A stretch of DNA of 64,000 bases, from assembly GCF_900114435.1 (NCBI RefSeq), contig NZ_FOZK01000001.1:434001-498000 (forward strand), written 5' to 3'. The DNA comes from Halomicrobium zhouii (GTDB lineage Archaea > Halobacteriota > Halobacteria > Halobacteriales > Haloarculaceae). This document shows, one piece after another, positions 3,301-57,489 of this stretch; position 1 is the first letter of the stretch, and each line of letters begins with the position of its first letter. The position numbers and the translations under genes were made by a program. The notes under the pieces were generated by a model. It did not search any database. It saw only the letters and a program-made list of their open reading frames with translations, and was not told the origin of the DNA.

Positions 3301-3640
3301 CTGGCGCCGAACGAAGTGAGGGGCCAGCTATATGGCGAGCGGGAGCGCCAGCGACACGCGAGCCGAGGTAGGTCGGGGCCGACCGGAGGGAGGGCCCGGC
3401 GAAACGGCGAACGGGGAACGAAGTGACCCGTGAGCCGAGGTAGGTTGGTGCGAGCGACGGGAGGCGCGAACGGAGTGAGCGCCTCCGAACGCGCGAGCGG
3501 CGGTAGCCGCGAGCAGCGAGCACCAACTAAATGGCGAGCGGGAGCGCCAGCGACAAGCGAGCCGAGGTAGGTCGGCGCCGAGCGCAGCGAGGGGCCGACG
3601 AAACGGCAAGCGGCGAGTGAAACGAGCCGTGAGCCACGGC
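3301..3640. repeat. Tandem array of hairpins with a conserved 11-nt loop
   Basis: Imperfect units of about 70-130 bp, each carrying GAGCCGAGGTAGGT or a variant, fill most of the rfcS-tauE interval. Clear stem-loops are: 3301-3308/3320-3327, loop GAACGAAGTGA; 3374-3380/3392-3398, loop GACCGGAGGGA; 3411-3415/3427-3431, loop GAACGAAGTGA; 3460-3467/3479-3486, perfect 8-bp stem, loop GAACGGAGTGA; 3571-3579/3591-3599, loop GAGCGCAGCGA. Every loop is exactly 11 nt. Three stems share a G-G mismatch at the third pair from the loop. The stems differ in sequence but stay self-complementary. Open frames on the minus strand across this block are repeat translations, not genes. Confidence 0.85.
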
Positions 3641-15452: not shown

Positions 15453-15908
15453 ATGGAGGTCGACGACACCGACCGCCAACTGCTCGCGGCCCTGGCCGAG
15501 GACGGTCGGGCGACGACGAACGACCTCTCGGCCGCGACGGGCATCTCCCCGCCCGTCGTCGAACAGCGAGTCACCGGACTCGAGAAGCGCGACGCCATCG
15601 CGGGCTACGAGGCCCGCGTCGACTACGACGAACTCGGCTTCGACGTCACCGCCGTCGTCCAGCTGACCGCCGCCGACGCCAGGCGGGCCGAGGTGCTGGA
15701 CGAACTGCGGACGGCAGACCAGTACGTCACGGTCTACGAGGTGACCGGGGAGTACGACGTCGTCGCCGTCGGCCGGTTCCGCGACACCGCCGAACTGAAC
15801 GAACGCGTCGGCGAACTCGTCACCACCGAGGGCGTCGCCGAGGTGACCACCGCGGTCGTCCTCGACACGGTCGCCGACGACCCGCTGTCGCCGCTCCGCG
15901 GCGACTGA
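15453..15908 (+). CDS. Lrp/AsnC family transcription regulator
   Basis: 151 aa. An N-terminal winged helix-turn-helix (DDTDRQLLAALAEDGRATTN and SAATGISPPVVEQRVTGLEK) is followed by the RAM/AsnC ligand-binding domain (TAVVQLTAADARR, YEVTGEYDVVAVGRFRDTAE). It sits 4 bp after glnK in the same direction, so it is probably co-transcribed. By position it may report amino-acid or nitrogen status and act on this operon; that is inference. Its short length fits the family. Confidence 0.92.
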   Translation: MEVDDTDRQLLAALAEDGRATTNDLSAATGISPPVVEQRVTGLEKRDAIAGYEARVDYDELGFDVTAVVQLTAADARRAEVLDELRTADQYVTVYEVTGEYDVVAVGRFRDTAELNERVGELVTTEGVAEVTTAVVLDTVADDPLSPLRGD

Positions 15909-16067
15909 ACCGACTGATCACGTATTTTTCGCGACACTCTACCTGGGTAGCGACTGGTGTCGACTGCCGGGTGTGACGCTGGATTCGACGGTTTCGTTCG
16001 CGAATGACTGAACTACTAGATTGATCAATTTGGGACCGAACAACTGACGGCGTTACCAACGACAAAG

Positions 16068-16163
16068 GAAAGCCCCGACGTGCTGCGGTCCCGCGGCTCG
16101 CTGCGCGCTCACTCCGTTCGCGTGCTTGCATCGCCGGGGTTCCCGCAGCACGTCGCCCCTTTC
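16068..16163 (-). repeat. Dispersed structured element, copy A1
   Basis: Reading the plus strand: GAAAG (16068-16072), then GACGTGCTGCGG (16077-16088), an inner hairpin with loop TCACTCCGTTC, CCGCAGCACGTC (16143-16154, a perfect 12-bp partner) and CTTTC (16159-16163). The family head (GACTGAAAGGGG) and tail (GGGGCTTTC...TTGTCGTT) read on the minus strand. It is the best-folded copy of the family. Confidence 0.8.
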
Positions 16164-16208
16164 AGTCCCACCTTTTGCTCCTGACGGATCGGCCGATTCG
16201 GGTGGACT

Positions 16209-16307
16209 GAAAGGGGCCGACCGCTCGGGGAAGGCGGGCGCAGTAAGCACCGCAGGCGAAGCCGAGGAGCACAGCAAGCCCCCCGACCCGAGCGGGAGGG
16301 GGCTTTC
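16209..16307 (+). repeat. Dispersed structured element, copy A2
   Basis: Opposite orientation to A1 and 45 bp from it. The head is GTGGACTGAAAGGGGC and the tail GGGCTTTCGGGCTGTCGTTT. GAAAG (16209-16213) pairs with CTTTC (16303-16307). CCGCTCGGG (16221-16229) pairs perfectly with CCCGAGCGG (16287-16295). The stem sequence is unlike that of A1 although the architecture is the same. Confidence 0.8.
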
Positions 16308-16459
16308 GGGCTGTCGTTTATCACTCCAGTGGCCGTCGTAGCTCAGATCGATCAACACAGTAGTTGAACCGCTCACGGAGAGACGACTGGTACGAACCGT
16401 CTGACACGCGAACCCCGGTCCGTCGGTGGCGTTAAGCCGTTCGCTCCGGACAGCAGCGT

Positions 16460-17101
16460 ATGAGTCTCGAAGTCGACGTCCGGAAGCTCGACCTCTTCAA
16501 CACGATGGCGAAGGAGGGGTCGAGCACGGTCGCCGACCACCTCGAACAGCTGACCGGGGTGCCGGCGGCCGTCCGGACGTCCCAGATCAACTTCCTCGAC
16601 ATCGGCGACGTGAAGACCCACATGGGCGACGCCGAGCGCGTCGGTATCTACGTCGAACTCACCGAGGCGCCCGGCGGCTACGTCCTGTTCGTCCTCGACC
16701 CGACCGACGCCAGGCACCTGGTGGGGCAGATGATGGGTGGCGTGGGGAGTGGAGACGACGGCGACGGCTTCACCGACATGGAACGCAGCGGGCTCCAGGA
16801 GATCGGCAACATCCTCACGTCCGGGTTCATCGACGGCTGGGCGAACGTGCTCGATACGACCATCGACATGGGCACGCCTCAGTTGCTGTTCGACCGCACG
16901 CCCGCCATCATCGACGACATGGGCGGCTGGCCCAGGTCCGACCTCGTGTTCGTCATCGACTCCCACATTGTGAGCAAAGACACCGACATCGACCTCACCG
17001 TCTACACCTTCCCCGAACTCCAGGCGCTGGTCGACCTCATCCAGGACATCGACCTCGACACCGACGTCGCGGAGGATTCGACCCCGGCCGACGTCTGGTG
17101 A
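16460..17101 (+). CDS. cheC: CheC-type CheY-P phosphatase
   Basis: 213 aa chemotaxis protein predicted to dephosphorylate CheY-P and adjust archaellum switching. The second family active site is intact: S110-GLQ-E114-IG-N117 within ERSGLQEIGNILTSGF. The first site (NTMAKEGSSTVADHLEQL) lacks the expected asparagine and looks inactive, so it may be a one-site enzyme. No other che gene is in the window, so it is an orphan relative to the main cluster. The start is supported by a TATA element about 27 nt upstream. Confidence 0.85.
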   Translation: MSLEVDVRKLDLFNTMAKEGSSTVADHLEQLTGVPAAVRTSQINFLDIGDVKTHMGDAERVGIYVELTEAPGGYVLFVLDPTDARHLVGQMMGGVGSGDDGDGFTDMERSGLQEIGNILTSGFIDGWANVLDTTIDMGTPQLLFDRTPAIIDDMGGWPRSDLVFVIDSHIVSKDTDIDLTVYTFPELQALVDLIQDIDLDTDVAEDSTPADVW

Positions 17102-27487: not shown

Positions 27488-27595
27488 GAAAGCCCTCGGC
27501 GCGCTCGAGTCGCGCGCCTCGCTGCGTTCCTCGCTCACTTCCGTTCGCTCCGGTACTTGCGTCGGCGTGCTTCCCCGACCCCGTCTCGCCCTTTC
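27488..27595 (-). repeat. Dispersed structured element, copy B1
   Basis: On the minus strand it starts GGTGGACTGAAAGGGCGAG and ends CGAGGGCTTTCGACGTGTTT. GAAAG (27488-27492) and CTTTC (27591-27595) close it. The interior is GC-rich with CGCTGCGTTC and TTCCGTTCGCTC loop-like segments. It faces copy B2. Confidence 0.7.
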
Positions 27596-27804
27596 AGTCC
27601 ACCAGGGATCGCATAGCTCGCGCCATGAAGGCGCTCGCGAATGGCTCCACCAAACCTCCCCGGTCGCTCGCCGTCCGGCGAGCGACACGCGTCCTGACCG
27701 CTCCACCGTCAGAACTCCGTTCTGACGAGCATCGCCTCGCGGTGCTCGGCTCAACGCAACCGCTCGGCCGGGAGCGCGGGGCTGCCTGTGGTCCTGGGAG
27801 GAAT

Positions 27805-27904
27805 GAAAGGGCGAGGTGCGGTCGGCGACGGCGGACGACGTAAGCACGCGAGCAACGCGAGCGCGCGCAACGAGTCCCCCGAGCCGAGCGCGCCGAGGGC
27901 TTTC
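27805..27904 (+). repeat. Dispersed structured element, copy B2
   Basis: The head AGGAATGAAAGGGCGAGG continues identically to copy C (at 33228) for about 30 bp. The tail is CGAGGGCTTTCTGGCTGTTT. GAAAG lies at 27805-27809 and CTTTC at 27900-27904. The middle differs from copy C. Confidence 0.75.
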
Positions 27905-33101: not shown

Positions 33102-33227
33102 CGAGTCTGCGAACGCTGCTCTCCGTCCGGCGCCATGACTGTCTCCAGCCGAACGCAGTCTGGCCGGGAGCGCGTTTTATCGCGCGACCAGGGGAAGGGC
33201 AGGGCTGCCGTGTTGTCCTGGAGGAAT

Positions 33228-33327
33228 GAAAGGGCGAGGTGCGGTCGGCGAAGTCCGACCCCGCAAGCACTGGAACGAAGTGAAGGGCGCAGCGGGGTCG
33301 CACGAGTCGAGCGCTCCGAGGGCTTTC
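33228..33327 (+). repeat. Dispersed structured element, copy C
   Basis: The head GGAGGAATGAAAGGGCGAGG is identical to copy B2, and similarity extends about 40 bp upstream (GCCGGGAGCGCG, GGGCTGCC). The tail is GGGCTTTCCTTTGTCGTTTG. GAAAG (33228-33232) and CTTTC (33323-33327) close it. Inner hairpins are GGTCGG/CCGACC and one with the loop GAACGAAGTGA. GTGCG (33239-33243) can pair with CGCAC (33299-33303). Confidence 0.75.
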
Positions 33328-51389: not shown

Positions 51390-51437
51390 GGACGAACTGG
51401 CGGCCGTGCGGTAGGAAGCGTGATTCGCGCCGGACGG

Positions 51438-51456
51438 GGTGGCGCTAGGCGCCACC
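51438..51456. terminator. Perfect hairpin after the DUF99 gene
   Basis: GGTGGCGC-TAG-GCGCCACC is an 8-bp perfect stem with a 3-nt loop, about 50 nt after the DUF99 stop. There is no T-run after it, so its role in 3'-end formation is uncertain. Confidence 0.4.
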
Positions 51457-51477
51457 TGTTGCGCGAACGGCGCGAGC

Positions 51478-51505
51478 GGGCCGAGGGCTTTCCCCTGTTT
51501 GCGGT
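51478..51505 (+). repeat. Tail fragment of the dispersed element, copy D
   Basis: CCGAGGGCTTTCCCCTGTTT followed by GCGGTG repeats the family 3' end. There is no GAATGAAAGGG head within the preceding 90 bp, so this copy is truncated. Confidence 0.6.
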
Positions 51506-55089: not shown

Positions 55090-55216
55090 ACGGCTCCCTG
55101 CGGTCGCCGTTCGGCATATAGGTGGTTCCTCACTCCGTTCGGAACCACCCTACTCCTCACGGGTCGCTTCGCTCCCCGTTCGCCGTTTCGACGGTCTTCG
55201 CTCCGCTCAGACCGTC
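55090..55216. repeat. Four hairpins with 11-nt loops at the 3' end of the MutS-family gene
   Basis: Stem-loops: ACGGC/GCCGT (55090-55110) with loop TCCCTGCGGTC; GGTGGTTCC/GGAACCACC (55121-55149) with loop TCACTCCGTTC; ACGGG/CCCGT (55159-55179) with loop TCGCTTCGCTC; GACGGTCT/AGACCGTC (55190-55216) with loop TCGCTCCGCTC. All stems are perfect, all loops are 11 nt, and the last stem ends exactly where the stop codon begins. Same loop family as the array near 3.3 kb. Confidence 0.9.
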
Positions 55217-57322: not shown

Positions 57323-57489
57323 CGATAGACTCACTTTGTTCGTCTATCGAGCCCGGCCTCACGCAGTTCGGCCGGACGCCGGCTGACTCCCGTTGGTCGT
57401 CCGTCGAGCCCACGCTCACTCCGTTCGCGTGGACGCCGGCAGACTCGCTCCGCTCGTCTCCCGAGCCCGGCCTCACGCAGTTCGGCCGG
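57323..57489. repeat. Tandem hairpins with 11-nt loops between the MinD and MutS-family genes
   Basis: Stem-loops: CGATAGAC/GTCTATCG (57323-57349), loop TCACTTTGTTC; CCGGCC/GGCCGG (57353-57375), loop TCACGCAGTTC; a mismatched stem with loop TCCCGTTGGTC near 57388-57398; CCACGC/GCGTGG (57410-57432), loop TCACTCCGTTC; AGAC/GTCT (57441-57459), loop TCGCTCCGCTC; CCGGCC/GGCCGG (57467-57489), loop TCACGCAGTTC. GGACGCCGGC with GACTC recurs between units. Confidence 0.9.

Follow-up and report, generated by a model that had tools for sequence, protein, structure and literature searches.

The inverted pair of hairpin arms at 16068-16307 of the window (the whole 64,000-nt stretch analyzed, C1:434001-498000 of G000, a 4.25-Mb haloarchaeal genome called here the own genome) is quite probably an old short-form member of a family of non-autonomous transposable elements (MITEs). 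We assigned the family to MITEs of the haloarchaeal IS6-like type because the same ends and 8-bp duplications bound elements that carry IS240-type transposase genes. The family itself, the ends and duplications in sister species, the matching IS240-type ends, the intergenic position, the presence or absence in relatives and the covarying stems are all read from the sequences; the transposase that mobilizes copies in trans would most likely be a haloarchaeal one of the IS6-like type. An earlier note had taken the pair for a free-standing structured element; it is instead the interior of a transposable element that is bounded by terminal inverted repeats and, among sister species, by target duplications of 8 bp. 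A complete short copy comprises outer terminal inverted repeats, two inward-facing arms of ~100 nt and a spacer of 30-50 nt; a DDE transposase supplied by a 695-697-bp haloarchaeal IS6-like element elsewhere (ISH14/ISH29-like) probably binds these outer repeats, and would insert the element with an 8-bp target duplication.

Structure of the window copy

Arm A1 (16068-16163) is a hairpin of ~100 nt whose folding strand, read outward from the spacer, is the minus strand, and arm A2 (16209-16307, folding strand plus) is inverted relative to it; the inner spacer between them (16164-16208) is closed by AGTCCCACC (16164-16172) and GGTGGACT (16201-16208). The facing arms, their coordinates, the GAAAG/CTTTC closure of both, the 12-bp stem of A1 (GACGTGCTGCGG/CCGCAGCACGTC) and the 9-bp stem of A2 (CCGCTCGGG/CCCGAGCGG) are in the sequence just as the earlier note described them. 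Against dinucleotide shuffles, the RNA folding z of the two strands was -5.3 and -5.6 for A1 and -2.5 and -3.5 for A2. The extent of 16068-16307 given in that note is correct for the arms, but the element is larger, since outer inverted repeats flank the pair: AACTACTAGATTGATC on the left (16011-16026, plus strand, outward similarity possibly to ~15999) and GATCAACACAGTAGTT on the right (16350-16365, minus strand, outward similarity possibly to ~16378). The whole element measures ~355 bp, has no transposase gene inside, does not have the structured ~190-nt centre of the long form, and has a predicted gene on either side, at 15453-15908 and 16460-17101.

The loop TCACTCCGTTC of A1 (16109-16119), which had been proposed to link the family to hairpin arrays, is no signature of the family; it is exact in only 11 of 139 own-genome arms, with a looser form in 86, so that the proposed link depends on a motif exact in a minority of arms. 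Short hairpins outside the arm family, with a conserved loop CACTCCGTTCG and unrelated stems, were observed in the window at 3468-3478, 55130-55140 and 57416-57426, and this loop is also found at the tip of some arms.

Three further members are present in the window: a complete long-form copy, arm, centre and arm, at 27488-27904 (R1, the covariance model described below, E 1.4e-17 and 2.5e-19), a half element with one arm at 33223-33327 on the minus strand (R1 E 5.7e-24) and a centre remnant upstream from ~33195, and a remnant with terminal GCCGAGGGCTTTC at 51400-51492 on the plus strand, which has a larger copy at the matching place in G006, the nearest relative.

Termini and target duplications

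Short inverted pairs of the sister species end in 17-bp terminal repeats of the GGTAGTGTTCAGATAAG type. The exact core GTGTTCAGATAAG occurs 59 times in G001 and 39 times in G003 (reversed control, 0) and forms inverted pairs 210-515 bp apart; an autonomous arm-bearing version was not found, as no exact-core inverted pair in G001 or G003 was spaced by more than ~515 bp. Target duplications were examined in 18 elements with recognizable ends, from G001 and G003, which are of the same genus, and from two further genomes (L143, L144), the sister-genome elements being ~264-403 bp long. Perfect 8-bp direct repeats stood directly outside the ends in 12 of the 18, all 12 mutually different, and two more had one mismatch. 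The duplication test is informative only once the terminal repeats fix the end positions; when 8-bp repeats were sought without such an anchor, anywhere outside the arms, they turned up at 2 of 152 pairs, about chance level.

IS240-type (PF13610) transposase genes sit in elements of 695-697 bp with GGCGGTGTTCAGATAAG/GGTAGTGTTCAGATTAG ends, and three copies of this transposase element in G004 have perfect 8-bp duplications. An IS6-like element of 695 bp in the own genome (L355, G000:C1 ~775550-776250, gene at C1:775839) has an open frame for the transposase, the ends GGCAGTGTTCAGATTAG/GGCGGTGTTCAAATAAG and a duplication that is not intact, and is the likely relative, in this genome, of the source transposase. 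ISH14 and ISH29, published IS6-type elements of haloarchaea, measure 696-697 bp and have GG ends and 8-bp duplications, and it has been argued that the archaeal IS6-type group perhaps merits its own family (PMC6807381).

The window subfamily has other ends, namely 16-bp terminal repeats of the form AACTACT..TTGATC. The window outer repeat pattern AACTACTGTGTTGATC, with at most 2 mismatches, was found 6 times in the own genome, 12 times in G006 and 0 times in the control, and such repeats mostly bound elements of 355-411 bp. The ends of the window copy (AACTACTAGATTGATC/AACTACTGTGTTGATC) differ from the canonical IS-type ends, their relation to GGTAGTGTTCAGATAAG is no more than suggestive, and the three window copies have no single end type in common. 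No target duplication was found at the window copy or at window-subfamily ends. Matching IS6-like ends hold for canonical copies only. The lack of a canonical terminal repeat and of a target duplication at the window copy counts against the MITE reading, as do the differing end types of the window copies. The window subfamily would be assigned to an IS6-like transposase through its family membership and not through its own ends, having presumably descended from elements of, or been moved by, the same kind of transposase.

Family size, distribution and forms

With A1 as a BLAST query, the own genome gave 56 matches; 277 sites of the inner motif GGNGGACTGAAAGG were counted there vs 56 in the control. 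A covariance model (R1) built from 42 aligned own-genome arms detected a total of 144 there (E <= 0.01). The own-genome arms form 79 distinct groups, none of which (0/79) lies inside a predicted gene, and much of the unannotated repeat sequence between genes in these genomes is explained by the family. Based on simple codon-usage gene calling, the own-genome groups were in tandem (35), convergent (23) and divergent (19) contexts, with no clear preference for promoter or downstream positions, and a terminator or promoter role was rejected on these contexts. R1 was positive in 43 of 59 genomes (the own genome included), the hosts including Halosimplex, Halorussus, Halonotius, Haloparvum, Halovenus and Natronomonas, and it had no match at five non-haloarchaeal control loci that contain the inner 17-mer by chance. 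Rfam gave no match above the gathering score, a tRNA aside, in the window and three further long-form loci, and a description of the family was not found in the literature, where the search was limited to open-licence papers. At the flanks of 15 own-genome arms (one cluster), a tandem repetition of the outer end (GAAAGCCCTCGGCGCGCTCTCTGGAGTCGGAATCGAGACCGCCAACAACCA) precedes a full arm.

The family has two forms. In the long form, arms flank a structured centre of ~190 nt, which has covarying hairpins of its own and is present at ~50 places in the own genome (53 scored matches) and in only 9 of the 59 genomes; the short form, with arms 30-50 nt apart, is the form in most other genomes. While most genera are without the centre, G029, of a different genus, has 25 long-form centres, which may reflect horizontal spread of the long form.

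The arms also vary in their inner domain, of which there are two classes with the outer stems common to both. The second class, with the other inner domain (GTCGCTGAGCGGGATATCC..GGATAGNGCCCGCTCAGCGAC), was seen in L151, L153, L173, L189 and similar loci (Halosimplex, Halorussus). Some arm tips have gained perfect nested hairpins with the outer fold retained, such as GAGAGAGCGAAGCTCTCTC beside CGAAAGAGCGCGTACGCGCTCTTTCG (L039, L052, L091, L037: arm tips and centre loops).

Covariation and the folding strand

The conserved fold with covarying stems that the earlier note claimed extends far beyond its two copies. When covariation was scored with the structure fixed beforehand, the 42 own-genome arms had 172 cells with two-sided changes vs 53 +/- 5 after shuffling and 28-33 with slid partners, comparisons that are not probabilities because the relatedness of the copies is uncorrected. 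Two-sided changes occurred in 19 of the 25 pairs, and 92.6% of stem cells were paired in the preset structure. Among 66 arms of other haloarchaea the corresponding figures were 231 vs 65, in an alignment biased towards the model because it was fitted to it. The outcomes named beforehand as speaking against a conserved structure (no covariation, stems made by composition) are excluded by the 42 and 66 arms.

Each arm folds on one strand, the outward-read one, as shown by the non-canonical stem cells of 125 own-genome arms: G.U was found 101 times on this strand vs 16 on the other, G.G 109 vs 10, and G.A 35 vs 4, and 15 columns favoured the outward strand vs 3 for the other (p 0.0075). The non-canonical pairs of other haloarchaea lean to the same strand. 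A mutation bias of the genome strand would cancel between A1 and A2, whose genomic senses are opposite. The outward strand, which is rich in purines, is more stable than the other strand under both RNA and DNA energy parameters, a comparison which therefore does not separate RNA from DNA; shuffled arms reproduced about half of the strand energy difference, because of this purine richness, and since the energy comparison is partly compositional, the strand claim rests on the pair counts. These counts are compatible with RNA and single-stranded DNA alike and make no distinction between the two.

MITEs are usually viewed as a passive stretch that separates two sites of transposase binding, and to our knowledge conservation of an internal fold across genera is not expected of them, so that transposition alone does not explain the covariation. 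We infer that the arms fold as one strand, either RNA or single-stranded DNA, and that selection acts to keep this fold; most likely, a step in the life cycle of the element itself reads it. Here the two elaborate hairpins of a MITE family, whose internal loops are conserved and whose pairs exchange freely, have been retained on one strand only and in many haloarchaeal genera, and the keeping of the fold across genera points to a fold-reading step in transcription, transposition or host escape. Such a step is testable because sister species hold young, intact-ended copies near likely source transposases. A further, more tentative proposal, which we consider possible but doubtful, is a haloarchaea-wide structured RNA borne by the transposon, in which the arms, together with the ~190-nt centre in the long form, are made as RNA whose fold serves transposition or the host.

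The matching of the stems could also come from a mutational process, namely template-switch correction of imperfect palindromes, and not from selection on the fold. Nearly all stem changes are indeed two-sided and perfect, with one-sided changes to a standard pair very rare, and the perfect nested hairpins at arm tips fit such a process as well. However, unpaired positions that correction would erase (the internal TC/TTC loop, one site with G.G or G.T, and another with T.T or G.T) are kept in almost all copies, and the mismatches are strongly one-sided by strand, a pattern not expected of symmetric correction; we therefore regard this process as an unlikely source of the covariation.

The strong covariation of the arms, the conserved centre with its own covarying hairpins, and the strand-specific non-canonical pairs on a purine-rich outward strand would also suit a free-standing family of structured RNA genes, regulatory or catalytic, that was dispersed by duplication and in which the mobile-element features are secondary. 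Such a family is quite unlikely in view of the terminal repeats and 8-bp duplications found in sister species and of the opposite senses of the arms, owing to which no single transcript folds both in the favoured sense; the gene contexts, which show no positional preference, and the negative Rfam search also count against it.

Age and rearrangement of the window copy

The DNA of G006 is ~90% identical to the own genome. The window subfamily is old, because several copies are common to G000 and G006, and the window copy is itself old: its ends are diverged, no duplication is left, and its interior is inverted in G006. At the matching locus of G006 the element is present with one arm truncated and with the interior inverted between the terminal repeats; reversing this interior brings A2 and its outer flank into close alignment, with the terminal repeats left where they are. 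At other sites common to the two genomes, the arms diverge much more than the surrounding DNA. Presence and absence were also found: a short pair of G006 is absent at the matching own-genome site (~20 bp there vs ~380 bp), and arms are missing from the own-genome site that corresponds to one long form of G006.

The inversion relative to the ends is not a product of simple transposition, and in this it counts against the MITE reading. It would follow directly if the element were an invertible segment, with the AACTACT..TTGATC terminal repeats as sites for inversion of the interior, since the interior is opposite in G006 and the repeats are in place. This was seen at one locus only, with one arm truncated in G006, ordinary inverted-repeat recombination or a second insertion would look alike, and no recombinase was identified, so that we consider an invertible segment improbable and retain the MITE as the reading of the window copy.

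Comparison with known systems

Membership among PATEs or other IS605-type elements was rejected since the family has terminal inverted repeats and target duplications, and SMR membership was rejected on the 8-bp duplications in sister species. An element of REP/BIME, PATE or SMR kind moved by a Y1 (HUH) transposase that recognizes single-stranded DNA hairpins is very improbable: the inverted pair of imperfect one-strand hairpins resembles BIMEs, Y1_Tnp genes are present in the own genome, and haloarchaea are rich in PATEs and in ~110-bp SMRs with inverted ends, but IS605-type elements and PATEs are without terminal inverted repeats or target duplications (PMC3119063), both of which the family has in sister species, SMRs lack the target duplications that canonical copies show, and nothing ties the own-genome Y1 genes to the element.

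The MITE of IS6-like type resembles ISH14 and ISH29 (PMC6807381) in its GG-starting terminal inverted repeats of 14-17 bp and its 8-bp duplication, and the partners found here are of 695-697 bp with a PF13610 transposase. It differs from them in that the window element has no transposase, measures ~355 bp and contains two inverted structured arms, for which the 697-bp elements have no room, and in that the window-subfamily ends are unlike IS ends. With haloarchaeal MITEs (PMC3119063) it has in common that it is non-coding, shorter than 500 bp and of high copy number, with terminal repeats shared with transposons and a target duplication in young copies; no description of conserved, covarying hairpin arms or of a structured centre was found for them, a difference that is drawn from descriptions only. 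SMR-A of Haloquadratum (PMC3119063), likened here by description only, is ~100-110 bp long like single arms and has inverted ends, whereas SMRs are without target duplications and insert into PATE palindromes.

The works-like comparison is with REP/BIME elements of bacteria, since in both cases inverted pairs of imperfect hairpins lie between genes and one strand folds. REPs are 20-40 nt long and tied to Y1 (RAYT) transposases, whereas here the arms measure ~100 nt and the element has ends of the DDE-transposase type. The new part is the architecture: covarying one-strand arms and an optional structured centre in a MITE.
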